This document shows, in pieces, positions 13,885-56,084 of a stretch of 64,000 bases of DNA. Source of the DNA: Mya arenaria. Taxonomy: Eukaryota; Mollusca; Bivalvia; Myida; Myidae. The stretch covers positions 23,661,473-23,725,472 of the forward strand of contig NC_069126.1 in the NCBI RefSeq assembly GCF_026914265.1, written 5' to 3'. A model generated the notes under the pieces. That model worked only from the letters and a program-made list of their open reading frames with translations. It was not told the DNA's origin and did not search any database. The first letter of the stretch is position 1; every line of letters starts with the position of its first letter. The position numbers were made by a program, and so were the translations under genes.

Positions 13885-16238
13885 TAAAATAATAATAATA
13901 ATAATAAATCTGCAGAAACGTCATAAATGCGAACAAGCTCATTTATTTTGATTCCTTAACCTTTTTGTTAATTTTTACATTGATTATATAAGTTCATCTC
14001 ACAAAGTCGCAAAATAACGAGAATAGGATAATATCAATGTACGACTAGGACAGACTCAAATCTTTATTAAATCTGGCCCCAGTGTTCCATAATAAAGGTA
14101 TATCGTTGACGTGTCGTCCGAAAATTCATATAGTCTAGTATATGTGTTCCATAGAGTCTGATTTATGTGGCGACTTGCTTTCATAAAATCTAACAAAAGT
14201 CTAAAAGAACGAATTTTACATGAGTGGTGGTCATTCAATGCAGGATTTGTTAAACGAGTTTTCTAAGATTTACACTAATAAAAACGAGCCACATTTTTTT
14301 ATTATCAAATTTCGCAAACTTGTTAGATAAATATCGTATTGAATTTCGACGAGTATGGTATTCTAGTTATATCATACTGCTAATATGATTACTTTTAGCG
14401 TTTAATTACATACAACCTCGCTATGGTAAATATTTTTAACTTACACAAGTTATACATCAAATATATGACGTTAGCTCAGGCTGGCGACGGCATTTATGAT
14501 ATAAACATTTATATAACACAGCGAGTGACGTGTTTCGTGTCAGAATTATGATTAAAAAATTCAATTAGTTTCTTTGGAGTGCAGCAATCGATACGTATTT
14601 GAGAAATAGATCAGCTGATTTCCGCTACTCATTTGATGAAAGACATTACGCTGCTATAAATTTCAATGATTTTCATCCCCTTAATCTTATCGTGATAACA
14701 TCATTTGCCTGACTAGCACCTGACAGCACTTAAGATAATAAAATATATGGATAACATATTCTTGGTCAGAATTATCAGTAATGTAATTAAAAAAATAACG
14801 TCTAAAAATATTATTTTAAGGCTTTTAAATACACTGTTTATTTTGTTACCAATCAAATATTTGCTAGCGCTATTAAAAAGGTAAATACAAAATAATTGAT
14901 ATTGACTTTTCTTTGATTGAATTAAAGGATGATATCCCGTTTCATTTTTCTTTAGTGAAATATCTTCAACGGCGGGCTGTTAAGAAACAGACCTGAAAGT
15001 ATACATATCGTCGACACCTTGCTCAGATATTTGTTTAACTTATCAACTTGCATATATTAGCTTTAAAAGCATATTTTAGGATTGTATATATACCAATAAA
15101 ACACTGCTCATTTCATTTAAAGTTCTAGTTATTGAGATCTGAATATTTGAGAAAGGAAAGCGGCCAAATCTAATGAATTTTCGTTGTTGACCCCTGTCGC
15201 CCAAAGTCTGAATTGTTTGGCTTAATACTCGCAGTTTATTTACAATTTCGCCGCCATAATCCCCGATTTTCCGTTTTAGTCACGCGTTCCTATCGATGAG
15301 AAGATTTAATGAGGATTTTTAAAAGAGATGTTAGTTTAAGAGTACATAATTACAATATGATCCGATTGAAGAACTGAAAAGAAGATTTCAGCCGATCGAA
15401 AAAAAAAATGTTCATGGTTTCTACACCAAAAATAGCCAAAAAACACACAACATGTATCGATGTATCTTTGCCATAAAAGGAATAATAATGCATGCATTAA
15501 TAATAATACAAGTTTATTCATTAAAAGTTGCACATGTTTTATTTGTAATTTTATTTTACAGACTCCTCTGCGGCTATTAAGAATGGCGGATGTTTTAACG
15601 GAGAATCTACAGTTCGGCTTTCTGACGGAAAAACCCGAACGATGGCGGAAATACAGGTCGGAGATCACGTGATGAGCATGCGCAGTGATGGTGTCATTGA
15701 ATACAGTGAAATAATTGCTTTTATGGACCGAGATGACAATGGCTATGGATTGTTCTACACTTTACACACAGAAACGGGAGAAAGTATAACGCTTACGGCA
15801 AAACATTTAGTGTACATTGTAAATCAAAACATGTCATTAACTATTGATAGGATGGACGCGGTGTTCGCGGAAAGCGTCGAAGAGGGGCAATTCTTGTTGA
15901 TAGGAGAAAGAGACTCAATTAGATTATCTCAAGTGACAGCCGTTACCGTGGAAACGAGGCGAGGAATTTACGCGCCTCTTACGAAGCACGGCACTATTGT
16001 CGTGGATGACATCGTCGCCTCGTGCTACGCTTTTATAGACAATATTGTAATTGCGCATGCGGCTTTCGCGCCGATGCGGGCTTATCACGACATATCGCAA
16101 TTTCTCCCTTCCTACACATGGTCAGTAGACAATAATGACACTAGTGTGGCCACGCCCACTGGGATGCACTGGTACGCTAACGTGCTGTATACGGTGGGTA
16201 GGACTCTGTTTAGCAAAGACACGTTATACGTGCATTAA
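10332..16238 (+). CDS. hh: Hedgehog signalling protein, last three coding exons
   Basis: Exons 10332-10516, 12371-12468 and 15562-16238 are all bounded by GT-AG and join in frame to 319 residues. The first exon (signal peptide, palmitoylated CGPGR) is missing from view. Residues 1-94 are the second half of the secreted signalling domain, starting [19 protein letters not shown]. The zinc ligands H47 ([10 protein letters not shown]), D54 and H89 (HIHCSV) are kept. Residues 95-319 are the Hint domain. Self-cleavage with cholesterol transfer is expected between G104 and C105 of GGCF. The TAKH block, FMD aspartate and SCYA cysteine are present, and the C-terminus [17 protein letters not shown] matches the sterol-recognition region. 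The product would be a lipid-modified morphogen acting through Patched. Exon phases match the conserved hedgehog structure. An odd 7-residue insertion, SPPETPP, follows WPG. The introns are full of MITEs and microsatellites, but the coding exons look intact. Confidence 0.95.
10668..11212. repeat. 22-bp minisatellite in hedgehog intron
   Basis: About 24 copies of a unit like agacccactctctgttcatc plus aa, with variants (attgaa, attaaa). It begins about 150 bp after the donor at 10517. It is non-coding and pyrimidine-rich. Confidence 0.9.
11787..12054. mobile_element. palindromic MITE, family B, copy 1
   Basis: Long terminal inverted repeats of about 65 bp. The left arm reads tggccgattgttgttg and then gttattaacggcatcgttgt. 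The right arm carries gatgacgttaacaacgttgt and ends atcggccgactgtg. A second copy lies at 13448-13694 and a left-end fragment at 37044-37120. The arms hold GTTAACAACGTTGTTAAC, itself a palindrome. Confidence 0.75.
12095..12238. repeat. (TCC)n-(TTC)n microsatellite in hedgehog intron
   Basis: A run of TCC triplets passes directly into about 35 TTC triplets, lying 130-275 bp before the acceptor of the exon at 12371. The long open frame across it is an artefact of the repeat. Confidence 0.95.
12617..12787. mobile_element. TA-flanked pogo/Tigger-like MITE
   Basis: The left end cagtcgaaccccgttggctc pairs with the right end ttcgagccaacggcgatctg, and TA lies immediately outside both. The 171-bp element has internal ggctcgaa repeats and no open frame. 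TA targets and CAGT-type ends are typical of Tc1/mariner/pogo elements. Confidence 0.75.
13045..13306. mobile_element. hAT-like MITE
   Basis: The ends caggggcgtagctag and ggcagctacgcgcctg form the imperfect TIR common in animal hAT-derived MITEs. ACGTG occurs immediately outside both ends and may be a remnant of the target duplication. It sits inside the hedgehog intron between the exons at 12371 and 15562. Confidence 0.75.
13448..13694. mobile_element. palindromic MITE, family B, copy 2
   Basis: The left arm tgggtcgattgttcagcacg continues with aaagttaacaacgttgttaa and cgtcatcattgttaac. The right arm has acaacgatgtcataa and ends acagtcggccaa. It is the same family as 11787-12054. Confidence 0.7.
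13809..13908. repeat. (TAA)n microsatellite
   Basis: An almost pure run of TAA/ATA triplets of about 100 bp in the last hedgehog intron. No gene is present. The rest of this intron (13909-15561) shows nothing else I can name. Confidence 0.95.
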
Positions 16239-18275: not shown

Positions 18276-18609
18276 CACGCTATATTATGTTGATTACTTT
18301 ACAAAATATCCGTTCTGAAAGGACTTGGCACCGGGGATGTGCAACTGGGTTGTTCTAATGATAGTTTGCACGAAATAAGGATACTGCGATGGAAGGGACG
18401 TTGGAACGATGCTTGATGGAATAAAGATTCGATGAAAAGATGGAGAGCCTGTGGTGAAATTGTCACCGCAACAATGTTGGAGACGAAGGAAAGGTCAATG
18501 GAAGGAAGGTCGCAAGAATGAAGGGTCAACGATGGAAGGGTTATAGAAACGATGGTAAGCATGAAGGAATTATAAAGCGCACGGTCGTTGAAGAAATGAC
18601 ATATCAATT

Positions 18610-21205
18610 GAAAGATGGTAGGAAGGAAGGATGGTGGGAAGGAAGGATGGTGGAAAGGTCGGATGGTGGAAGCGAAAAATGATGATGAAGGAAGGATGGT
18701 AAGTAGGAAGGATGCTGGGAAGGAAGGATGGTGGGAAGGAAGGATGGTTTGAAGGAACGATGGTTGGAAGGATGTATGGTGGGAAGGAACGATAGTAAGA
18801 AAGAAGGATGGTGTGAAGGAAGGATGGTGGGAAGGACGGTTTGGAAGGAAAGATGGTGGGAAGGTAAGATTGTGGGAAGGAAAGATGATAAGAAGGAAGG
18901 ATGGAGGGAAGGAAGGATGGTGGGAAGGATGGTGTGAAGGAAGGATGGTGGTAAGGAAGGATGGTAAAAAGGAAGGATTGTGGGAAGGAAGGATGGTTGG
19001 AAGCAAGGATGGTAAGCAGAAAAGATTGTGGTAAGGAAATATGGTAAGAAGGAAGGATGGTGGGAAGGAAGGATGGTGGGAAGGAAGGATGATGTGAATG
19101 ATGGATGGTGGGAAGGAAGGATGGTGGGAAGGAAGGATGGTGGGAAGGAAAGATGATGGGAAGGAAGGATGGTGGGAAGGAAGGATGATTGGAAGGTAAG
19201 AGTGTGGGAAGGAAGGATGGTAAAAAGGAAGGATGGTGGGAAGGAAGGATGATGGGAAGGAACGATGGTGGGAAGGAAGGATGGTGGGAAGGAAGGATGA
19301 TTGGAAGGTAAGAGTGTGGGAAGGAAGGATGGTAAAAGGAAGGATGGTGGGAAGGATGGTGGGAAGGAACTATGGTGGAAAGGAACTATGGTGGGAAGGA
19401 AGGATGGTGGGAAGGATGGTGGGGATGGTGGGAAGAAAGGATGGTGGGAAGGATGGTGGGAAGGATGGTGGGAAGGAAGGATAATGGGAAAGATGGTGGG
19501 AAGGAAAGATAGTAAGAAGGAAGAATGGTGGAAAGGAAGGATGGTGGGAAGGAAGGATGGTTGGAAGGATGGTGGGAAAGATGGTGTGAAGGTAAGATTG
19601 TGGGATGGAAAGATGGTAAAAGGAAATAATGGTGGGAAGGATGGTGGGAAGGAAGGATGGTGGGAAGGAAGGATTGTAAGAAGGAATGATGATGGGAATG
19701 AAGGATGGTGGGAAGGAAGGATGATGGGAAGGATGGTGGGAAGGAAAGATGGCAAGAAGGAAGGATGGTGGGAAGGATGGTGGGAAGGTAAAATTGGGGG
19801 AAGGAATGATGGTAAAAAGGAAGGATGGTGGGAAGGATGGTTGGATGGAAGGATGTTGGGAAGGAAGGATAGTGGGAAGGAAGAATGGTAAGAACGAGAA
19901 GAAGGAATGATTGTGGGAAGAAAAATGATAGTAAGAAAGGATGGTGAAAAGGAAGGTTGGTGGGAGGGAAGGATGGTAGGAGGGAAGAATGGAGGGAAGG
20001 AAGGATGGTGAGCAGGAAGGATGGTGGTAAGAAATGATGGTGTGAAGGATGATGGGAAGGAAGGATGGTGGGAAGGATGGTTGGAATGTAAAAGTGTGGG
20101 AAGGAAAGATGGTAAAAAAGAAGGATTGTGGGAAAGTTGGTGGGAAGGAAGGATGATGGGAAGGAAGAAATATGGTGGAAAGGAAGGTGGGAAGGAAGAT
20201 GGTTGGAAGGAAGGATGGTGAGAGGGAAGGATGGTATAAAGGAAGGATGGTGGGAAGGATGGTGGGAAGAAGGATGGCTGGAAGGAAGGATGGTATGAAG
20301 GAAGGATGGTAAGAAGGAAGGATGTTGGAAAGGATTGATGGTGAGAAGAAGTATGGTATGAAGGAAGGATGGTGAGAATGATGGATGGTGGGAAGGACGG
20401 ATGGTGGGAAAGAATAATGGTGGGAAAGGAAGTATGGTGGAAAGAAATAATTGTGGGAAGGAAAGAATGTTTGAATGAAGGTTGGTGGGAAGGAATGTTG
20501 GTTTGAAGGAAGGATGATGGGAAGTGAAGATAGTGGAAAGAAAAGATTGTGGGAAGGAAGGAATGTGGGAAGGAAGATGGTGGGAAGGAAGAAATATGGT
20601 GGAAAGGAAGGTTGGAAGGAAGATGGTGGGACGGAAGAATGGTTGGATGGAAGGGTGGTAAGAAGGAAGGATGATGGAAAGGAAGGATGGTAAGAAGGTA
20701 GGATGATGGGAAGGATGGTGGGAAGGAAAGATGGTTAGAAGGAAGGATGGTGGGAAGGATGGTGGGAAGGTAAAATTGTGGGAAGGAAGGGTAATTGGAA
20801 GGTAAGATGGTTGAAAGAAAAACTAGTTGGAAGGAAGGTTGGTTGAAAGAAAGATGGAGGAAAGGAAGAATGTTGTGAAGGAATAATTGTGGGAAGAAAG
20901 ATGATGGTAAGAAGGGATGGTGAGAAGGAAGGTTGGTGGGGAGAGAGATGGTGGAAAGAAAGGATGGTGGGCAGGAAGGTTGGTGGGAGGGAAGGATGGT
21001 AGGAGGGAAGAATGGAGGGAAGGAAGGATGGTGGACAGGAAGGATGTCGGGAAAAAAGGATGGTGAGAAGGATGGTGAGAAGGATGGTGGGAAGGATGGT
21101 TGGAAGGAAGTATGGTGGGAAGGAAGAAAGGTGGGAGGGAAGGATGTTGGGAGAGAAGAATGGAGGGAAGGAAAGATGGTGGGTGGGAAGGATGGTTGGA
21201 ACAAT
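18610..21205. repeat. 2.6-kb 16-bp minisatellite, cytosine-poor strand
   Basis: Tandem copies of gggaaggaaggatggt (16 bp) with frequent 12-bp variants (gggaaggatggt). The plus strand is almost free of C and mostly purine. The minus strand is open for 866 codons, but only because the repeat lacks stop codons in that frame. The Pro/Ser/His-rich product has no start context, domain or exon signals, so it is not called as a protein. Confidence 0.95.
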
Positions 21206-21239
21206 GAATAAAAGTCGGAAAAGTGTTTAAAGAAAGGTA

Positions 21240-21577
21240 CGGAATGCCGTTAAGGGCCATCGCCTATGAATGTGTTAATCTGAAACGCGATACTCGATAA
21301 CTTACGATCATGATGAAAACGCGAAATCATGAAACTACGATAGCTGACATGATTCAATGACTTTATACAACATCGCGCTATCGCGTTTTCACAATCGTAC
21401 TATCGCGTTTTCATCATCGTACTGTCGCGTTTTCATCATCGTACTGTCGTGTGTTCATCATCGTACTGTCGCGTTTTCATCATCGTAGTTTCGTGATTTC
21501 CCGTTTTCACCATCGATCTATCGAGTATCGCGTTTCAGATCAACACATGCATAGGTGATGGCCCTAACGGCATTCCG
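21240..21577. mobile_element. TA-flanked MITE with internal 23-24-bp repeats
   Basis: The ends cggaatgccgttaagggcca and tggccctaacggcattccg are inverted, and the match extends about 65 bp. TA flanks both sides. Inside the right half are about five tandem copies of catcatcgtactgtcgcgtt. It directly abuts the minisatellite. Confidence 0.85.
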
Positions 21578-38216: not shown

Positions 38217-40076
38217 TGGATGAACTTAACGAAAATGACTAAGATCTCTTGTTTGGAAACATTTTTGATGCGGATGCATTTTTAAATAGTGATTTTGAAA
38301 TTGAACCAGTTGATGAACACACAGCTAGAGAAACAACTTAATTCCCTCAAAATAATGCTGACAGATCCATGCCTGAAGAACATTCCCTAATGTCAGAAAT
38401 AGTGAATGTAAGGGAATTCAGAAATGTGAATGTAGATCATTTTCTCGAAGAAAACGTAAACAAAAATACAGTGAAAAAAAAACAGAAAGTGATCTTAAAG
38501 TTTTCCGCCTTTTTCTTTCTCACAAGGGAGAAACCGCAACATTCAATTTATTCCATCTGGTCAACCAAATGACTTTATCTGCATTTTTTTTGCTATCTGT
38601 AACAAAAAAAAATGGGGAAGAATATGAACCGACAAGTTTGAGAAGCATTGTCAGTTCTATAGACAGACACTTGAAGGCATCACAGTCAAAAGCATGCATC
38701 GTAAACGACATAGAGTTTGCAAAATGTCAAAATGTGCTAAATAGCAAACAGAAATCACTGAAAAAGCAAGGGCTTGGAAACAAACCAAAGGCCGCAGAAT
38801 CCCTGACAAATCACCCTTGGAGATTTCACTGCCAAGTCATTAATTCACTCCATGTGGTTCATATGTGTCACTTTCTTCGGGATGCGCACTGGCACTGAGA
38901 TCCATAATCTTAAGTGGGGTGATGTTTCTGTTGGTCTCGATGATGGCTCCGGACGCGAGTTCTTGCAGCTGTCTACAGAAAGACAAACAAAGACCCGTAC
39001 TGGGGCAAATGCACGAGACATAAGGTATTTACATAACAGTGCCGGTCATATCAAAGCTAGAAAATAAATTATATTTTTGTGTAACAAAATGCTATTGAGA
39101 ATTTGATTTATATATAAAAAAGTAAAAACAAAAAGAATTGTACCAATAATTATTATTTCTAAACAAATAACTTTTCCTTAAAACGACAAAACCAACCAAG
39201 AGCTTATGCTGTGCTGGGAGACCCTGAAAGAGATCCTGTTCATCTATACAGAACATACACAGACAAGCGCCCAGCTGAAATGCTTCAGGAAAACAGCCCG
39301 TTTTTTCTCAGCATTTGTACTTCACGTCAGAGTGGATGGTATAAGAGATCTGCAATGGGTGTTAACAAACTATATAACACCATGAATGAAATGAAAGCAG
39401 ATGCCGGCATTGACGAAGCGAGAATAACTCCCTACAGGTATAGTCAACAATTTATTCAATAAAAAATATCTCACCCTTAAGTTTTTTCCGGTATATTTTC
39501 CATAGTTGTTTTCCCTTGTTGTTGCTCGTGTCAAACATTTGCTCTCGTTTGGATAGATACATTTTAAAAAACAAAACAAATGCTCAAACACTTTTAATTT
39601 CATCTTTGTCAATTTCAGCTGTATTTTGTTATCTGTTGATGTTCTTTTGCAGTGCCAGAAAACGAATGGTTCAGAACCTCAACGACGAAGGTGTACCTCC
39701 CAACCAAATCGTACAAATTTCAGGCCATAAGAATATACACAGCCTGAATAATTACAGTAAATTGAACACAAACCATTCGATGGAGATCTCGGATATTTTG
39801 TCAAATGCTAATTCCAATGGTGGACCAACTAATGCATCCAGAAGAAACTTGCCTGCATCCGATGCTGCTACGAACATGTCCCAGGGTTTCGTTGTAAACA
39901 CCAATTTCATGGGAAATGTCACTTTCAATTTTAAGAATTAAGAACAAAACACTCTCTCGCAAAAGCAGCATGTGGTGAACAGAAATCCACAAATTCCTTC
40001 TCCATGTTCCAGTCAGGGAGAGAAAAGACCTGTCTACAAGAGAATCCGGCTGATATCTGATAGCGAGAGCGATTGA
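38217..40076 (+). pseudogene. Crypton-type tyrosine recombinase, decayed, with introns
   Basis: The coding parts follow the DUF3504/Crypton recombinase order. First comes an N-terminal acidic region, then a core-binding part with KKNGEEYEPTSLRSIVSSID. The catalytic arginine is in FFGMRTGTEIHNLKWGDV. Then come VHLYRTYTDKRPAEML, MGVNKLYNTMNEMKADAGI and the end block KRMVQNLNDEGVPPNQIVQI, SGHKNIHSLNNYS. GT-AG introns are evident at about 39026-39190 and 39438-39652. Several frame breaks and early stops mark it as dead. Across the last intron the joined codons read TPYSARKR, with Tyr where HSxRK would normally supply the catalytic His. In-frame sequence after the stop at 39941 continues to KRIRLISDSESD at 40076, so the ancestral protein was probably longer. 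An AATAAA is at 40229. Cryptons are DNA transposons that use a tyrosine recombinase alone. Confidence 0.75.
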
Positions 40077-44590: not shown

Positions 44591-45682
44591 ATGAATGACA
44601 CAAACCCTACGTCTGTCCTGAGCGGTGGGACGTCCGTCTACGGTTCGATAGCCGGGGCGTTGGACCTCTATTCGCCGCCAGTTCTTATCGCTATTGGAGT
44701 CACGTGTAACGTCCTCGTGATCTGCGTGATGCGACTGCCTTATTTTAAGCACGTGTCCACGTCGTTATACATGTGCACAAACGCCGTGGTGGACAACGCC
44801 AGCCTTCTCGTGGCCTTCCCGCCGCACTGGATTCACGTCAATTTCCCGCGCTTAATTTTCAGGGGAGAGCACGCCCACTTTCTGTGTAAGCTGTTCAACT
44901 TTGTTGGATGGGGGACCAGCAACCTTGGGATTGTCCTCACCGCCGCCATGACGGTGGAGCGAGCCATCGCCGTCACGTTTCCACTTCACGCATCTGCTCT
45001 TTGCACAAAAAGGAGAGCGAAATACGCCACTGTCGCTCTACTGATATTTATATCTATAAAAGACGCCCACTTCCTGTTAAAGTCAACAATGGCGCCTCTT
45101 GAGTTTGAGACCCAGCTTTGTGTGATCGATACGTCGGACCCATACGTCAGATATTACGCGAAAACCGTATGGCCAATAATTCAACACGTATTCTTATTTG
45201 TCACATTTGCTTTCATCATTGTCAGCAACGTTATGATCATCAAACAAACACACTCGATTACAAGTCTAAGTACATCACTAAGAACTTCTTACAGACAGAA
45301 TGGAAACGGAAACCAGCTTACCAACCCAGCACGGTCGAATCAAATGAAAACGCTGACCATCATGCTGTTGATTGATTCTCTATCAGTCATGGTCTGCACT
45401 TTACCCCTTACACTACTGCATTTAATCAACCCGCAGTTTAGCGACCCGGAAATAGGTAACATGCTGTTCTCCATCGGATTTTTTCTTGTGTATGTGAACC
45501 GGTGCGGGAACTTCTTCCTATATTGTATGAGTGGTCAGCGGTTTCGCACAGCACTTCGGCTGCTAGTGTGTGGGGGTGCGAGAAATCTACCCGGGGGTCA
45601 GGCCTTTTTCGTCACTCAAGCCTCCCGTTCCGCTGGTCTGGTCTTGTCGGCATCAGACCTCAACAGTGGTCAGAATTCATAG
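44591..45682 (+). CDS. rhodopsin-like (class A) G-protein-coupled receptor
   Basis: One uninterrupted exon of 363 residues with seven hydrophobic helices. TM1 contains GNVLVICVM, with the conserved Asn at 40, and TM2 has Asp 68. C99 at the top of TM3 and C177 in extracellular loop 2 form the usual disulphide. After TM3 comes ERA (123-125) where DRY is normal. TM6 has TLP instead of CWxP, and TM7 ends NFFLY (307-311) instead of NPxxY. N2 lies in an NDT glycosylation site. It would sense a peptide or small ligand at the cell surface; the ligand cannot be told. The profile resembles invertebrate orphan or neuropeptide receptors. An acceptor-like tttacttttcag ends at 44562, so a non-coding 5' exon is possible. 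AATAAA at 45876 may end the transcript. The frame is intact despite the surrounding MITEs. Confidence 0.88.
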   Translation: MNDTNPTSVLSGGTSVYGSIAGALDLYSPPVLIAIGVTCNVLVICVMRLPYFKHVSTSLYMCTNAVVDNASLLVAFPPHWIHVNFPRLIFRGEHAHFLCKLFNFVGWGTSNLGIVLTAAMTVERAIAVTFPLHASALCTKRRAKYATVALLIFISIKDAHFLLKSTMAPLEFETQLCVIDTSDPYVRYYAKTVWPIIQHVFLFVTFAFIIVSNVMIIKQTHSITSLSTSLRTSYRQNGNGNQLTNPARSNQMKTLTIMLLIDSLSVMVCTLPLTLLHLINPQFSDPEIGNMLFSIGFFLVYVNRCGNFFLYCMSGQRFRTALRLLVCGGARNLPGGQAFFVTQASRSAGLVLSASDLNSGQNS

Positions 45683-46604: not shown

Positions 46605-47057
46605 ATGATGCTAGTGGTGGTGGTTGTGGCGGCGGCAGTTGTTGTGGTGGTGATGATGATGATTATGTTGCTGCTACTCCTCCTGCTACTGCAACTCCTG
46701 CTGCTTCTCCTGGTGCTGCTGATGATGCTACTACTGCTGATGATGGTGTTGGTGATGATGATGCTAGTGGTGGTGGTTGTGGCGGCGGCAGTTGTTGTGG
46801 TGGTGATGATGATGATGATTATGTTGCTGCTACTCCTCCTGCTACTGCAACTCCTGCTGCTCCTCCTGGTGCTGCTGATGCTGCTACTACTGCTGATGAT
46901 GGTGATGATGATGGTGTTGGTGATGATGATGAGTATGATGATGATGAGTATGATGATGATGAGTATGATGATGATGATGAGGAGGAGGAGGAGGATGGTG
47001 GTGGTGGTGATGATGATGGTGATGATGGTGCTGCTGCTGCTGTTGCTGCTGCTGATA

Positions 47058-47128
<71 letters not shown>
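46605..47128. repeat. compound GTG/GAT/CTG microsatellite
   Basis: A 153-bp block starting ctagtggtggtggttgtggc occurs twice (46611, 46764) and is followed by GAT, GAG, GGT and GCT runs and about 25 GAT triplets. The long frames on both strands are repeat artefacts. Confidence 0.95.
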
Positions 47129-47684
47129 CTTTCTTGGAACATTTTTTTTCACAAATATAGCTATTTGTGCAATATCCTGTAACCGTTAAAACACTGAAAA
47201 TACGCAGGCTCTTTTGGTTTCGAATTTTTCGCAAATATTAGTTTAACAGGTAATTCTAAATAATAATATAACACACATTTAAGCACTGCTGTTTTCCCTA
47301 AATGCTTACTTCATTTTATATCATTTTATATAAGTTAAATTATAGAAACTCGTATCGATTGGTAACGGTAGTATAATAATTAATTCAGGAAGTAACGTTG
47401 AAATTAAACGTCAAACGTTTGCCTATAACGTTTATCATAAATCGTTAACCAATCGCAACACCTCATATGAAGCCCCTAGGGTCTGATCTCGCCGCTTTGT
47501 TGTTGTAATTGATAATTTGTAAATATGTACACACTTTAAACAATCTGATAACGTGGATAACAAATTTATTCTAAATATTATTGTATCGATACAAGCTGGC
47601 ATAATACTTTCCTTGGAGTAGAAAACTATTTCTGTGGCTTAAAAAGTGATATTTATTTTGTAAGTGGAAGGAAATCCCAGACAA
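47129..47684 (+). other. upstream region of the lectin-WSC gene
   Basis: No coding feature. The promoter and 5' UTR of the next gene must lie here or in an unseen upstream exon. No TATA box or other element can be singled out with confidence. Confidence 0.35.
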
Positions 47685-50600
47685 ATGCGGATATTAAGAT
47701 GCGTAGCTGTTATTTTTCTTTGGAACTTAATACTACACACAGGTTAGTTTTTTACATATTTTTTTTTTAAATATTGTATCTACAAGGTTAAGGCACTGAG
47801 GCTAATAAAAAGGAATTGGGCATTAAGGGGCACACTTTAGGTTGATGCAAACAGCTTTTTTTTACATTTTAATGCAGTATAGATTTTAACTCATTAATGA
47901 ATAGCTACGTGGGCACAAATTCCCCTGTTAAAAGCGCCAAATCATCGCTAATGATTGTTTAATCTAACCCTAAATCATACGCATTTTCTTGTTTTTTAAT
48001 CAAAGTGAAATTAATTAAATAAGATACTGATTTATTAGAATAAAAAAATACATCAACCTATATGATGCGCCTTTAAATCGTTTAATGTATATTTGTAAGT
48101 GGATATAGTTTTCCATTTAAAATGTAGTTCTTTTTTATCAATTTTGCCGATTCCCTTTGGGATGATTTAATAAGTTTAGGACGAATGGCAGTTTAAATAC
48201 ATATTTACATATTAAAATTAGGAATTTTTTTATAAAAATGTTTATTATATGTATTGTGTAACTGAAAGTGTATTAATAGTGTTGAAAACATGTTGTTTAT
48301 TTATATAATATGTTATGTTTGCCTTGCAGCCTGCAATGAAGTCAACTACAAACTTATTTCGGACAGGAAGCAGTGGGCGGACGCGGACAAAGACTGCCGC
48401 TCACGTGATGGGACGTTGGTGGTTCTGGATACGCATGATCGCGTAATGGCGATCCAGGCCGCTGGGGTGCTAGAAACCGGACGTCCGGTGTGGACGACCG
48501 CCTACCGCCAGCATTCGCCCTGGGTTTGGGTGGAAGGTGAGTAAAGTGCGAGATCAATATAAAGATTAGAAATACAAATAACTGTGTAAAAATATTTTAA
48601 TATAAAGACTACTAGTATCAAACTATTTTTGAGCAATCTCAAGATATAGCAGGATCGGTATATCAGATCAGGCGAAGCTCACTATTTTTTTATAGGTAAA
48701 ATACTTGCAATTTTCTTCTCTTCAGAGTTTTGAGACATTTACAAGAAACAATAATAAATATGATCCCAATCAATTGACCGAATGGACCGTCTGTAGGAAA
48801 ACGTGATGCCTGTGGTGAACAACCCGTAACAATGTTGAATTCAAGTTTAAGACATTTTGAAAGTACATCGCCATTTTGTTATATACAATGTAGATTAAGA
48901 ACATTAAAATAAAGCTAATGAATGAAAGATAGGTTCATAGACAAAGACTTTTATATATCTGTTTGGTGTATTGTGCAGGTTGTTTCTCGGCGCCATTCCT
49001 CACAAAGACCGACGGGACGCGGCTCGCGGGGAACCAAGCCGCCGAGTGTTCCGCCGCCTGCAGGGACTTTAACTACGCCGCCGTTAAGGTGCATATTTAC
49101 TCCTCTTAGATACTTCAGTGTGTATGACACATGTATGGCGCTTAAAGTCCTTGTTAACGGATCAGGGTTTTTTATGCTACGCATCCCCTGTTTATTGCCC
49201 AGTTATCACAACACTCACCCCCGGTGCCAAATGTCCTCTGTGTTGTTGTTGTTCATATGAGTTTATCAATGTCTGCCCGCGCATATTGGTTCCATTATGA
49301 CATGACCCAGCAATGACGCCATCATAACTTAAATTATGTTCAAATGCCATAAGTGGCATAAGAAAGAATTGACTGCAATTCCCACTCTACTACAGGCATT
49401 AGAATTCTTGGAAAAACAGAGTGAGATACATGGGATCCGGGTGCGATATCTCTTTTTGTTACCTAACTTGCACTTGCGGCGGTGTAAGGCACTTATACAC
49501 CAGACACAATTTGCCTGTGTTTATCCAGTACTGAGCACACCATTTTCGAAGTACTGCCCTTTTAAAACCAAGCGCTAAACAAGGGAGATACTGACACCAT
49601 ATGCTAACGTCTTTCGGTTTGAGGCGGCCGGGCTATGAACCCAAGACCTTCCGCATCCGATACAAACGCTCTTCCACGGGGCGATAAGCAGTGTATTGTT
49701 TGTTGGCTAATTGTGATTTATGGCCGTATTCAAAGAAAATGGGCTGCATCGGATAGGCCTTGACAGATTTCCATTTTTAATCGGAGATCGGAGATCTGAT
49801 CAATGATAGGGGCAATAAAGATCAGAACCAATAAATATGTGCAATATCTTGGATAGTGTTTGATATTATATAACTACCAATTTCTTTAAATGCTGGTCGG
49901 TGTTTACGCAATTTCAAAAATATTTAACTGGCCGGTTGAATAAATGGATTTAAACCATTTGTTATACTATGCTACGTACTCAGCTAAGGGTAAAGGGCAA
50001 GCTTGTATTATGGGAAAACAAGGACAAGTCTGGTAACAAAATAAAAGTTAAAAGTTCTAGTGTTTATAAAATTAGATGTTAACAAAATTGTTCAAGCTCC
50101 CTCTAATACAGAAACGTTACCCGCTTACCTCCCCTGCAGGGTCACATGTGTTTCTGCCTCGAGGACATGCGAGAGTTGCAGCCCCTAGACGCCCGGGAGT
50201 GCGGTGTCCGCTGCCCAGGGTCTGCCGGCGAGTGGTGCGGGGGTGACCGTGGAGCCGTGTCCGTTTATAGCCTTGGAGGAGTGAACGGATATAAGGGTAA
50301 GGGAGATCACTCGTGGATGGTATTGGGAGTACATGATTTTGAGTTAACTCCATTAATAGCTGAGTACACAAATATTGCATTAAATTTTAAAGTTATAACC
50401 GCCGTCAATAATACGATTTGCAAAATACATTAAATTGGTTTCAGCCACAGGAATTTTGATATCGCTCTGTATTTGTGGCGTGTGTGTTTGTGTGAATGTG
50501 TTTTCCCTCGGAACCTTACTTATATAAAGGGATTTAGAAATAGCATACGGACCCATGTATTTACAAACCATTGTTAATTTTCAGAATCGGAGAGGAAAGA

Positions 50601-53600
50601 AGATGATGTAGAGTTGCAACAATCAGTTCACGGTAATATATCAAAGCTGGAACTTATATTTTTATGTTATTACACAAAAGGATTAGTGTACCGTCCGGAT
50701 TATTAAAACAAATGCACATTAATATAAAAAACAACCGAAACACGCCATTTATAAAAAGGTAATAACTACATCAACCACAGCTTGAGTTTCTTTGCAATAA
50801 TTTAGTTTAAATTGATTAAATTACAACTAACTATTGTAATACTTTTATGTATATTCCTGTGTTTTCTTATATCTGCTATCGTTGGCAGAGGCATTTAATA
50901 TTCTTTAAAGGGGCATTCTACTTATTACCCTAATATACTTAAAGTTGTACAGGTGTATTTGTATCCATATTGCAGAGGTGAGTCGGTCTGATTGGAAGAA
51001 CTGTGTGTACATACTGAAGCACGATACGCCCGTTTGGATATCCTCAGACTGTCGCAAGGCCCGACCATTCCTCTGCAAAATATGTAAGTACTCGTAACAC
51101 TGTTTGTTTATTATTGGAACAGTCTTTTTCTATAACTGTATTAGCAACATCATTATCAACATCATCATCAACAACAACAGCAACAACAATAACAACAACA
51201 ACAACAACAATATCACCAAAAATATCAACAACACCCACCACGATAATGACATTCACGTGTATAACGTAACAAACAAGAATAAAAAAATAGTTTCACGTTG
51301 AGGGGCATAAATGTGACCATAAAATTTCTTCTTCCTAATAAGCAATTATAATGTAAACTTGTCGAAATATTCAAGGAAATGTCACGGATAGTATGATTAA
51401 TGATTGAAGCCATATAAAACACGCACAATCTTTATATTTAAACACAGACGAAAACATATAAATAACAATTACTTTTGATTGATAAAATTTCACTAGAATA
51501 CAATCACAGAGTGTGTATACCCCGTGATAAATTACGTCATATATGCTACGTCGGAAGGCAACATTTTACATCAAATGAAGACTAAAATCAAAGATAACTT
51601 TTCTTATACTACACCATTTTAAATAAAACGAAGGGCAGTCTACGCCACTTAAAGAGCTCCGCCTTTGTTTTATTACAGAAGTTTGATTATGTGATTAGTT
51701 TCATCAAATACTTCAACAAACCTGTTTCCATAATAATGTTTTGACAGTGCTCCATCAGACGGCCGTATTGCGAAAAGGTTTTTCGAAGTGTTTGAAGAAA
51801 CTAAACTCGCAATCAAACTCTGGTAAAAGACCGATGGCGGGGCGTAGACTGCGCTATGTTTCATCTAAAGTGGTGAAGAAATAGTGAAGTTATCTTTGTT
51901 TTAAGTCTTCATTCGAAGCAAAATATTGCCTTCCGACGTAGCATTTATGACGCAATTTATCTCGTGGTATACACACACTGAATCATATCGCTACCATACC
52001 ACAAACTATTTAAACTAATTTGCAGACCGTGAAGAGGGTTCGGTGATCGAATACAAGAGTCCCCGGCGGAAGACGGGCTCCTGGTTGGAATCACGTGACC
52101 TATGCCGCGCGGAGGGTGGCACTCTGGCCGACCTACATGTGAACAACATGGAGGCCGTGCTGGCACTTCCGGACCACAGCGAGTTCTGGGTTGGGCTTTA
52201 CCGAAACACTTCTTGGACGTGGCAAACAGGTTCGTTATCATGGACAATGGCAAAAATATCCATAATGAAAATGCGAGTTAATGCAAAATGAAAACACCAT
52301 TATCTTGTTTTTTTCGGGGAGTTTCTGTGAAAACGATAAAGTTTAGTTATCATTTGCTGGTTGAATTGCAACATACAAAATATAATTGTATTTGTTATAG
52401 TTGGTTGTCAGCAAACTTCAGTCTCAGTGTTAATAGGCCCCAAATTGTGTACTCACAGAACTACAATGATTGAAGAGCATACATACGATGCGTCATAGAT
52501 CATAATGGAAGTGATAAGATTTGACTTCTTTGTACTTTCTCAAATACATGCTTATTTAAATCCTCCCCCCAAACTTCAGATCCGGTGTTGGAATTTCCTC
52601 AATGGTGTACTGCAGTGACTGAAGATAAACTCGGAGAGCTTCACTTTAACACGGAGTCTTGCAGCATACCACATGATTACATCTGCCAAATACGTAAAAA
52701 CGATTTAATTTAAACTTGTTAAAGAAGTTATTACATTATTATATCAATCCCTCTCGTTTGCACAATGCTACGCAGGAGTGTAGTACAATGTATTGCGTTG
52801 TGGTGGATACTGGAGTAACTGGAGAGGCCGACATGTCCGTCATGCCAAACTCATGTGTGCACTGACCGGGACTCGAACTCGCCTTGTTGAGGAGCGAGTG
52901 CGCCATTCACTGCGCCAACAAATTAATTTGCCTGAATTTAAAAGTGTTATATATGAATAACTAAATTAAATAGCAAAAGCAGTCACTTTTTATAGAAATT
53001 CTTATTTTTATATCTTATTATTTTCAGCTGTCCCGGTTGCAACTCAAAAACGTAAGTGTTGCTCATATTGATATTGGAATTTATAGAACACCAGGCATAG
53101 TTATGGGGACGTTAATGAAACATCTATATATGATTAATCGATTCACATGATAAAGTATACTCTGTCGGAGTTTACTGGCAAATATATAACAGTTACTGTA
53201 CCCAAAACCCGAGTTATTGCAATGATACACGAGCACTTTAGCGCTTTATCGCTCATGTATACTTTTAATCTCGAGGTAAGTGGGTGACTTTACTGTTTGG
53301 TACCATGATATCAATGGCAATGTTCAATAACTAGCGTATGTATAAATTAATAGCTTTGTAATGTATCCGTACGATAGTTATTGCACGGTAAAGCTTCGCC
53401 TACGTGTTTCCGTTCCAATATGGAAGTCTATGTTTAAACGAAGACAAGAAACTCTAGTAAAACAATTGTTTAAGCCTTCCTCACTTCCGAACTCAACCTC
53501 TGCACGCAGAGTGCTGGTACTCAAATACAACGACGCCATTACGTAACGTTCTGGAAAAAACACACGCTACTATTAGTTGTTTATAATCTTCTTAGGTATA

Positions 53601-55178
53601 TAAGTAAGTCAATTTTTCACTCGTTATATATGCCGTTATGAAACCAAACGGTTTCAAATGTTGTTACACGTCATTTTATCGGTTCCTTTCTACGAAATGT
53701 TTACATTAACTATGTCTTTGCTACATACTGGAAAATTTATTCCATTAACTTTGACATTAAATGGTGGGGGTATTTCAAATACATTTGGTGGTTCTTTGAA
53801 TGAACGTATGTTTTGTTTATGCATTTATTTCACATTTTTCAAACTATAAATGTCGCCTAGTTATATTTCAGAATATAAACGTACAGGTCTGGAACCAAGC
53901 GTCCATGATAACGGAAATGTGATTAATTTATAATCGATTGTTTATTGTGATGATTGACCAATGATTGATTATACTCCATTTATAAAAAAATAAAAAAATA
54001 ACAAAACACATGAACATCTATACACTTAATTACCTGACATCTCTCCTCTCTCCCCCAGACTCCCCAATGGTAGCGTACCTAGTTACGGGCAGCGTGGTCT
54101 GGGTGTTAGCCATAGCAACGGGTGTGTTCGTCTTCTACATGGTCCGCAGGAAGTACGTGCTTACTAAGGTTACTTGAACGACGTTATATCGCGAGAAACT
54201 TTCGATACTGGGACATTTATAAATGGATTTCCCTGTCTAGGACTAAGTCAGGCAGCAAAACTTATATTACGTCATCGACGAAACTGTTGAGTGTGACAAC
54301 TGTTCAAGAAAATAGCAAATAACATTCAACAGTTATTTCCCTTTTTATGACTATTTCAGTACGAACACAAATATTCTAAATTCTTAATATTTTATTGAAA
54401 AAACAAAATTGGGTCTGTTATATACCTATGAATAAGACTGGTAGTTCTAATTAACAACTTTACGTTTTAAGGACATTCAATATTGGTATAGATTTTGTTA
54501 GTCTCGTTATTCTATTTAACAATAATAACTCTCTGGATTTAACTAAAGGCTATTGTTTCTGTTAATAGAGGCTGTTGTAAACGGTCGAGCGGCGGTCAGA
54601 CACGGACCAGCTACCTTGACTTAGACGAAAGCGCCATGACGAGCAGAAATGCCAGAACGCGCCCGCCGCGCCCACTTTCACACTCTTACGTCAACAGTGA
54701 CGTCAGTAACGCACCGTCATGCTCACAGCAACGGTTTGACAGCTCAGACCCGCCACTGAAATCAAAGGGTGGCTCTGAACAGGAGGATCAGTCTTACCGT
54801 AGCACCGGAAATGAATACGCGAGCGTCTGTATGTCCAAAATAGCGCAGAGGGACAATGATTTCTCACCGATGTCGGACGACGACGGGGCCTGTAACTCTG
54901 GGTACACCAATCGCGGGTCCACGAGCACTGAAGGTGATTATGACGTAGTTTGGGACTCCGTTAAGTTTGGGAAGCATCTAAACGCCGCTCTCGGGCGCTC
55001 AGACCGTGATTCACTGTCGTCTGACAACATTTATACGGAAATTGATAGGGTGACAAAGATTGACATTCCCTCCGATGATTTTGAGGCCGCGGAGCTGTTT
55101 CCGCCGAGTGAAAGGTTTGGCGCAGAAGGTGCTACATCGAAATCTGCTCTCACGCGCACTCGATCTAGGAGCATGTAA
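47685..55178 (+). CDS. transmembrane receptor: CTLD with nested WSC, second CTLD, Tyr tail
   Basis: Exons: 47685-47742, 48330-48536, 48979-49088, 50140-50296, 50585-50632, 50976-51083, 52026-52229, 52580-52693, 53028-53051, 54059-54152, 54569-55178. All have GT-AG borders and join in frame to 577 residues. Residues 1-19 are a signal peptide. Residues 20-88 are the first half of a C-type lectin-like domain, with a DKDC cysteine and WVWVEG. Residues 89-177 are a WSC domain with all eight cysteines (GCF, AEC, AAC, MCFC, REC, RCPG, WCGG). Residues 178-193 are a charged linker. Residues 194-229 are the second half of the lectin domain (WKNC, SSDC, FLCK). Residues 230-335 are a second complete CTLD. 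The membrane helix is about 347-372, followed by RRK and GCCKR. The tail has Y390LDL, Y415VNS, Y458ASV, Y499DVV and Y530TEI. No EPN/QPD calcium motif is seen, so classic sugar binding is doubtful. A role as a cell-surface recognition receptor is inferred. Confidence 0.88.
49400..49692 (-). mobile_element. probable tRNA-derived SINE in intron 3
   Basis: On the minus strand, ccccgtggaagagcgtttgt and ggtcttgggttcatagcccg resemble box A and box B of a tRNA head. A body with ctcccttgtttagcgcttgg follows. It lies in the intron between the two WSC exons. The 3' limit is uncertain. Confidence 0.45.
51143..51238. repeat. (AAC)n/(ATC)n microsatellite
   Basis: CATCATCAACAACAACAGC-type triplets of about 95 bp, right after the exon ending at 51083. 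It is non-coding. Confidence 0.9.
51507..51980. mobile_element. MITE with about 115-bp TIRs and 5-bp target duplication
   Basis: The left end cagagtgtgtataccccgtg and the inverted right end cagtgtgtgtataccacgag continue to match for about 115 bp, including gctacgtcggaaggcaa. AATCA flanks both sides (51502-51506, 51981-51985). It sits in the intron between the end of CTLD 1 and the start of CTLD 2. A 5-bp duplication is unusual for the common MITE groups. Confidence 0.85.
52790..52925 (-). mobile_element. SINE fragment, head and start of body
   Basis: On the minus strand, ttggcgcagtgaatggcgca, ctcgctcctcaac, gagttcgagtcccgg and cacatgagtttggc match the head of the SINE at 7008. The rest of the body is absent. 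It is intronic in the lectin gene. Confidence 0.7.
53275..53405. mobile_element. inverted-repeat element, relative of 35355
   Basis: The inner arms caataactagcgtatg and cgtacgatagttattg lie inside the outer gtgactttactgtt and cacggtaaagcttcgcc. It shares the gttcaataactagcg core with 35355-35495. It is intronic, between the exons at 53028 and 54059. Confidence 0.5.
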
Positions 55179-55377: not shown

Positions 55378-56084
55378 TAGTTATCTTATATTGTTTATTT
55401 TAATCATTATATTTAAATTTATTTAATATTTGTAATTAAAGGGTTTTTGTCTTTTTGGAGAATTGTCAATCAGCTGCTATCACACTTTTACAGGTTACGA
55501 GTAACTTGTGAAGTGAGTGCTACAGGAAGTGCTTAAAAGTGTGAAGAAATTCTATAACACGCGGATGCAAAGAAACAGAGAAAATGGACACCTTAAATTT
55601 GGTGCAGATATCGTGCTGTTTGGCGTTAGAACTATGAAACGAATATTTTTATATTTATTTTGTTCAATTTATTTATTATATTGCAATAAATGTACATGTG
55701 TTTTTCATTATAAGTTTTTTAATTATCAGTATTATGGTTTCATTAAACTGCATATATGAATTAGGTGAGCGATCACGGGCGTTCATGGCCCTTTTTGTCT
55801 CTTTGTGTAGGATAATCCCTTCAATTATATCGTGTTGCGTTGCATTTGTTTCAATGTACATTATGGACACAATTTGTGGGTTAAAGGGACTACACACAAG
55901 ATGATATTATTGCAAGAAAAATAAGAATGGGGAAAATGATATCGGTGTGTACAAATGTTTGAATCTTACTTACTGATGTATTACATCGCTAACGACACAT
56001 GTATCTTTCACACAGTTTTAGCGTATTTTTTCATTCAAAATTTACCTGGTTTGGGGGTTTAACGTGAAACGGGTAAACTTAATG

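Follow-up and report, generated by a model that had tools for sequence, protein, structure and literature searches.

Can a complete domain be carried inside another domain of the same protein and, if so, how might it have arrived there? This question is raised by a gene in a 64,000-nucleotide stretch of DNA from the bivalve Mya arenaria (assembly GCF_026914265.1, contig NC_069126.1, positions 23,661,473 to 23,725,472 of the forward strand). We call the whole stretch the window, and coordinates count from its first letter. A preliminary description of the sequence had proposed that the first of two C-type lectin-like domains (CTLDs) encoded by this gene, CTLD1, is interrupted by a WSC domain. 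We find that the two parts of CTLD1 cover complementary parts of the Lectin_C profile and form a single match when joined, and that the layout recurs in four further species. The proposed nesting is thereby confirmed. In the explanation that we favour, a WSC module of two exons, with a phase-1 intron on either side, would have been shuffled into a phase-1 intron common to both CTLDs, located after the motif WxWxx, in the heteroconch bivalve ancestor or earlier. We give this account of layout, origin and nesting a probability of about 0.8.

Gene model

The Mya arenaria gene model has 11 exons and a 577-residue product. Splicing of the window DNA gives GT-AG at 10 of 10 introns, and the NCBI protein LOC128233586 (P0001, 499 residues) corresponds letter for letter to residues 1-497 of the model. 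When exon 11 is ended at 54933 and a further exon is added, P0001 is obtained exactly (499/499 residues). The exon positions, phases and product length proposed at the outset were all reproduced in this way. The coding features are:

47685..47742, + strand: exon 1, with the start codon and a probable signal peptide (hydrophobic N-end)
48330..48536, + strand: exon 2, CTLD1 N-terminal half (Lectin_C profile 2-59 of 107), phase 1-1
48979..49088, + strand: exon 3, first half of the WSC domain, phase 1-0
50140..50296, + strand: exon 4, second half of the WSC domain, phase 0-1
50585..50632, + strand: exon 5, 16-residue linker, phase 1-1
50976..51083, + strand: exon 6, CTLD1 C-terminal half (Lectin_C profile 79-106 of 107), phase 1-1
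52026..52229, + strand: exon 7, CTLD2 N-terminal half, phase 1-1
52580..52693, + strand: exon 8, CTLD2 C-terminal half, phase 1-1
53028..53051, + strand: exon 9, short stalk, phase 1-1
54059..54152, + strand: exon 10, transmembrane helix (hydropathy peak at residue 351), phase 1-2
54569..55178, + strand: exon 11, cytoplasmic tail, long form with stop and conserved tyrosine motifs
55494..55504, + strand: alternative last coding exon of the NCBI model, used with the donor at 54933 inside exon 11

A lectin domain in two parts

A Pfam scan of the 577-residue product, suggested earlier as a check, detected both expected families: Lectin_C (PF00059; cut-off 22.6 bits, profile length 107) in three stretches, and WSC (PF01822; cut-off 27.8 bits). 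CTLD2 also scores above the Lectin_C cut-off. Taken alone, the N-half of Mya CTLD1 matches Lectin_C positions 2-59 with 18.6 bits and the C-half positions 79-106 with 16.5 bits, both below the cut-off. Joined, with the WSC omitted, they form a single stretch over positions 2-106 with 32.3 bits. Joined CTLD1 is likewise above the cut-off in 4 of 4 orthologues (Ruditapes 31.5, Mactra 33.0, Mercenaria 29.7 and Potamilus 40.0 bits), with join points a few residues off the one scored in Mya. As stated earlier, neither half is complete alone in Mya. In Potamilus the N-half alone is above the cut-off (29.2 bits), and the C-half matches positions 80-106 with 16.8 bits.

Lectin_C positions of about 60-78 are missing from the CTLD1 halves. 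They fall in the gap between WxWxxG and the second cysteine, which we take to be the CTLD long-loop region; the insert therefore appears to stand in for that region. Exon 2 ends with WVWVE and one base of a glycine codon, and this one glycine both ends WxWxxG and precedes the first WSC cysteine, leaving no linker on the entry side. On the exit side Mya has the 16-residue linker exon, and the Potamilus protein shows a gap at the linker. From the WxWxxG glycine to DWKNC the insert measures 108-109 residues in four clams and 91 in Potamilus. With the same order and near-identical junctions in four further species, and joined CTLD1 scores of 29.7-40.0 bits, the layout goes beyond chance.

Cysteines and the WSC domain

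The WSC domain scores 31.0 bits against PF01822 within the whole protein and 35.9 bits alone. It is above the cut-off in four of the five further orthologues, the truncated P0005 reaching 26.6 bits. In all five proteins with an N-end, the aligned cysteines number one in the CTLD1 N-half, eight in the WSC and three in the C-half, and the canonical CTLD1 cysteines (Cys42, 203, 219 and 227) are present. This agrees with the earlier assignment of an eight-cysteine WSC to exons 3-4 and of the canonical CTLD cysteines to both halves together. Extra N-end cysteines (Mya 6 and 21; Mactra 9 and 19; Mercenaria 9) are unconserved and fall within the signal peptide or close to it. Since the N-half has a single cysteine and the C-half three, the former would have to pair with a C-half cysteine. 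Profile match and cysteines together argue for a single CTLD1 lectin fold.

The clam WSC resembles that of yeast Wsc1 (PDB 7PZ2; E 0.0063 in a PDB search) in its CGG motif and in nearly the same cysteine spacing: 22, 4, 13, 2, 15, 4, 8, as against 22, 4, 16, 2, 15, 4, 8 in Wsc1. The spacing holds in five of five whole domains, except that in Potamilus the first interval is also shorter by 1. The cysteine positions and disulphide bridges of Wsc1 were taken from PMC9024836, which also gives the strand order beta1-beta5-beta3-beta4-beta2, with the first and last strands adjacent. Because these strands are neighbours in Wsc1, the two ends of the clam WSC should, by analogy, sit side by side, as insertion into a loop requires. 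As judged from alignment and spacing, the clam domain keeps an aromatic residue at just two positions of the aromatic clusters 1 and 2 described in that source, those of Y70 (F130) and Y107 (Y168). The PDB match to the Kremen 1 WSC is not significant (E 0.54).

Most likely, CTLD1 would still form a single compact lectin domain in which the C1-C4 disulphide (Cys42-Cys227) ties the halves together, and the WSC would be presented on the side that many CTLDs use for ligand binding.

Orthologues and conservation

Among about 5.8 billion proteins searched, six clusters were matched, all with both PF00059 and PF01822. The two CTLD1 halves surround the WSC in five species, namely Mya, Ruditapes, Mactra, Mercenaria and the unionid Potamilus; the Dreissena model has no N-end and begins inside the WSC. 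In the taxonomy, Imparidentia includes Mya and Ruditapes, and Palaeoheterodonta includes Potamilus; both groups fall within Heteroconchia. Mactra, Mercenaria and Dreissena are also placed with the clams (Imparidentia). As the layout is common to Ruditapes, Mactra, Mercenaria and Potamilus, its age, judged from these protein sequences, is at least that of the heteroconch ancestor.

Identity was expressed as the mean among the five clams (Imparidentia) followed by that to Potamilus, excluding P0005 from the CTLD1 N-half. The CTLD1 C-half is the most conserved segment measured (0.89 and 0.73); the N-half is not slow (0.68 and 0.45). The other values are 0.73 and 0.48 for the WSC, 0.57 for the linker (no Potamilus value), 0.80 and 0.57 for the CTLD2 N-half, 0.66 and 0.55 for the CTLD2 C-half, 0.59 and 0.31 for the membrane segment, and 0.54 and 0.27 for the tail.

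The proposal to look for orthologues with and without the insert was borne out on one side only: four further species have the insert, and profile searches returned no insert-free orthologue. A whole-protein profile returned the same six proteins and one multi-WSC metagenome protein (P0007). A profile without the WSC (candidates of about 158-502 residues) returned P0001, P0004, P0005 and a partial Sinanodonta protein (P0008), which starts where Mya exon 7 starts and is uninformative on the insert. To be considered in these searches, a protein had to share exact words with the query, so that distant relatives among pteriomorphs or gastropods may have escaped them. A search of the Mya genome (1.216 Gb) with P0001 for a second copy gave eight matches, all within this gene, and scans of viral contigs with a WSC protein and with a CTLD alignment found no relatives.

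Origin of the insert

The inserted block (exons 3-5) enters and leaves in phase 1 and is thus a symmetric 1-1 module. In CTLD2, which has no insert, a phase-1 intron (52229/52580) follows directly on WTWQT, at the place that aligns with the cut in CTLD1. Exon model and CTLD1/CTLD2 alignment thus uphold what had been claimed of the phases and of this matching empty intron.

The Mya genome was searched for other WSC domains (E up to 10), giving 68 matches, of which 40 are above the cut-off, one of these only together with its neighbours. The control set gave one match, from Escherichia coli and below the cut-off. WSC exon ends were read by eye at 11 loci. Exons cut at the place corresponding to the exon 3/exon 4 boundary were found in phase 1-0 at L024 and L038 and in phase 0-1 at L026 and L035. 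For two more 0-1 exons a single end is clear, the acceptor at L027 and the donor at L037. L032 and L022 were examined and no inference was taken from them. The same 1-0-1 cut in other Mya WSC domains, two of them in genes without a detected CTLD, supports the exon shuffling of a phase 1-1 module that had been suggested. No Lectin_C match was found on the coding strand of two WSC regions, L039 (9.0 kb) and L040 (8.5 kb). The former showed WSC plus one sub-threshold hit, the latter WSC and epidermal growth factor (EGF) repeats. Searches by tblastn with CTLD pieces on 32 loci around WSC matches (L009-L040, mostly with 1.5 kb of flank and excluding the eight loci of this gene) matched WSC only. 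Between the nested WSC and the other stretches of Mya WSC matched by tblastn, identity is about 26-41%, so no recent donor is apparent.

Weighing the explanations

Several results weigh against one intact lectin fold around a shuffled module. AlphaFold gave a mean predicted local distance difference test (pLDDT) score of 40.7 with P0001 first in a six-row alignment and 36.9 with P0006 first in a seven-row alignment; neither gave a usable model of the double-loop CTLD fold, or of the PAN/Apple fold with four disulphide bridges to which WSC domains belong. When the Mya halves are placed in reversed order the total is still 30.3 bits, in two stretches; what the join contributes is therefore one continuous domain more than score. 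With a narrow profile built from the orthologues' CTLD2s, joined CTLD1 and N-half alone score 24.8 and 20.3 bits (P0006), 17.2 and 16.2 (P0002) and 14.5 and 13.4 (P0001); they are equal in P0004 (17.6), and the joined form is lower in P0003 (17.1 and 17.6). The C-halves alone score 1.0-3.6 bits, not above the shuffle maximum of 13.0 (1000 shuffles, 972 reported), which the joined forms exceed (14.5-24.8 bits). Against this profile the C-half adds little or nothing. Among the WSC exons, the acceptor at L009 lies elsewhere, in phase 1, and L029 and L034 are ambiguous. Finally, a transcript that omits exons 3-5 stays in frame and encodes a plain CTLD, so that the insert could be optional.

This last point leads to the best surviving alternative, in which the WSC exons are a cassette, some transcripts encoding a plain CTLD1 and others the nested form. 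It is compatible with our explanation of the nested form, and we think it unlikely. Exons 3-5 are symmetric, exon 2 joins exon 6 in frame to give a compact CTLD, and the entries for Ruditapes and Dreissena bear the name isoform X1, their clusters having six and three members. Against this, the WSC is present in 6 of 6 clusters, a WSC-less isoform would fit the length limits of the search unless clustered with the long form, and the WSC-less query returned no such form.

Rather less probable is a domain-swapped pair, in which the CTLD1 halves would belong to the lectin folds of two chains. Snake snaclecs exchange their long loop between chains, the insert lies in the long-loop region, and the best PDB sequence match of the joined CTLD1 is echicetin, a snaclec. 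The join nevertheless fits the Lectin_C profile within one chain, with no need for a swap.

A decayed CTLD1 that survives as a mere linker around the WSC would agree with the lack of a confident AlphaFold fold (though there is none for the uninterrupted CTLD2 either) and with the absence of the motifs EPN, QPD and WND from 6 of 6 ectodomains. We consider this very improbable. The slowest-changing segment is the CTLD1 C-half, above the WSC and both parts of CTLD2 (the N-half being lower), which argues against decay; all four CTLD cysteines are kept, and CTLD2 is likewise without the calcium motifs. A gene-prediction artefact merging two genes is scarcely credible: the evidence for exon joining does come entirely from annotated or inferred models, but the layout, with both halves and very similar junctions, is found in five species in records named in three styles (RefSeq LOC, ACF0H5 and CHS0354), and both Mya halves, taken singly, stay below the Lectin_C cut-off.

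The predicted receptor

The nested product would be a single-pass type I membrane receptor with a signal peptide, CTLD1 carrying the WSC in its long-loop place, CTLD2, a transmembrane helix and a tyrosine-rich tail. The proteins have an N-terminal hydrophobic stretch (not in the truncated P0005) and one transmembrane peak after CTLD2. EPN/QPD and WND are motifs of calcium-dependent sugar-binding C-type lectins. Since they were not found in either CTLD of the six ectodomains (P0005 being N-truncated), classical calcium-dependent sugar binding is unlikely.

The tails are 129-210 residues long as annotated. GNEYA and Y[LV]D[LM] occur in 6 of 6, SYVNSD in 5 of 6, and YDxVWD in 4 of 6; the long form of the Mya tail has YDxVWD as well. 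The immunoreceptor tyrosine-based inhibitory motif (ITIM) is S/I/V/L-x-Y-x-x-I/V/L; no strict example, with S/I/V/L at -2, was found in the six tails, and TxYxxL occurs in four of them. The WSC head probably binds a glycan or a protein and would signal through the tail tyrosines; the chances that the tail has a signalling role by tyrosine phosphorylation seem about even.

The Mya and Mercenaria NCBI models stop short of the distal YDxVWD and NIYTEI-type motifs, which the other models keep. Mercenaria P0004 stops at about the same place as P0001 with another ending (...SSEGFKR); the Ruditapes, Mactra, Dreissena and Potamilus models have the long tail.

Relation to known systems

Compared with C-type lectin-like domains such as those of ASGR1, the mannose receptor and echicetin, the clam domains have the same cysteine and tryptophan skeleton and give PDB sequence matches. 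They differ in the missing calcium-site motifs and, for CTLD1, in having a whole domain in the long-loop place. Unlike the WSC domains of Wsc1 and Kremen 1, that of the clams sits inside another domain. Members of the Polycystin-1/PKD1 family also combine a WSC with a C-type lectin domain, there separate and in series; in the Pfam scan the clam protein has no other polycystin domain. Terms for both domains occur in PMC1934368 and PMC9672506.

The preliminary description had named no standard receptor with this layout. A limited literature search, by titles and abstract openings, did not contradict it: no paper was found that describes a CTLD with a WSC or any other domain inside it, which is weak evidence for novelty. 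We lean towards the view that a complete foreign domain has replaced the ligand-binding long loop, that the lectin fold serves as a scaffold presenting the WSC head, that the arrangement has been retained from the heteroconch ancestor or an earlier one onwards, and that the architecture is unreported.

Exon shuffling is best known for the end-to-end addition of domains. Here a phase 1-1 module seemingly entered an intron within a domain, at a change-tolerant loop of the C-type lectin fold, and the product is common to two bivalve superorders. This would be a concrete case of nested domains arising through introns. It would also show a CTLD serving, in nature, to hold another domain, which is of relevance to protein engineering and to the way in which bivalves build receptors.

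Other features of the window

About 2 kb upstream of the gene lies a single-exon rhodopsin-type G-protein-coupled receptor (44591-45682, + strand; 7tm_1, E 5e-16). An open reading frame at 15642-16238 (+ strand) contains a Hint (hedgehog autoprocessing) module (E 5e-57). At 39516-39941 (+ strand) there is a tyrosine recombinase-like C-end (Phage_integrase, E 3e-4, below cut-off), possibly a mobile element remnant. Long simple-repeat tracts occupy 18299-21260 and 46620-47130, and their long open reading frames are probably spurious. The intron between exons 6 and 7 contains an inverted repeat with arms at 51507-51646 and 51841-51980 (84% complementary) and an inner second pair; the whole (51507-51980) is perhaps a foldback element or one resembling a miniature inverted-repeat transposable element (MITE).

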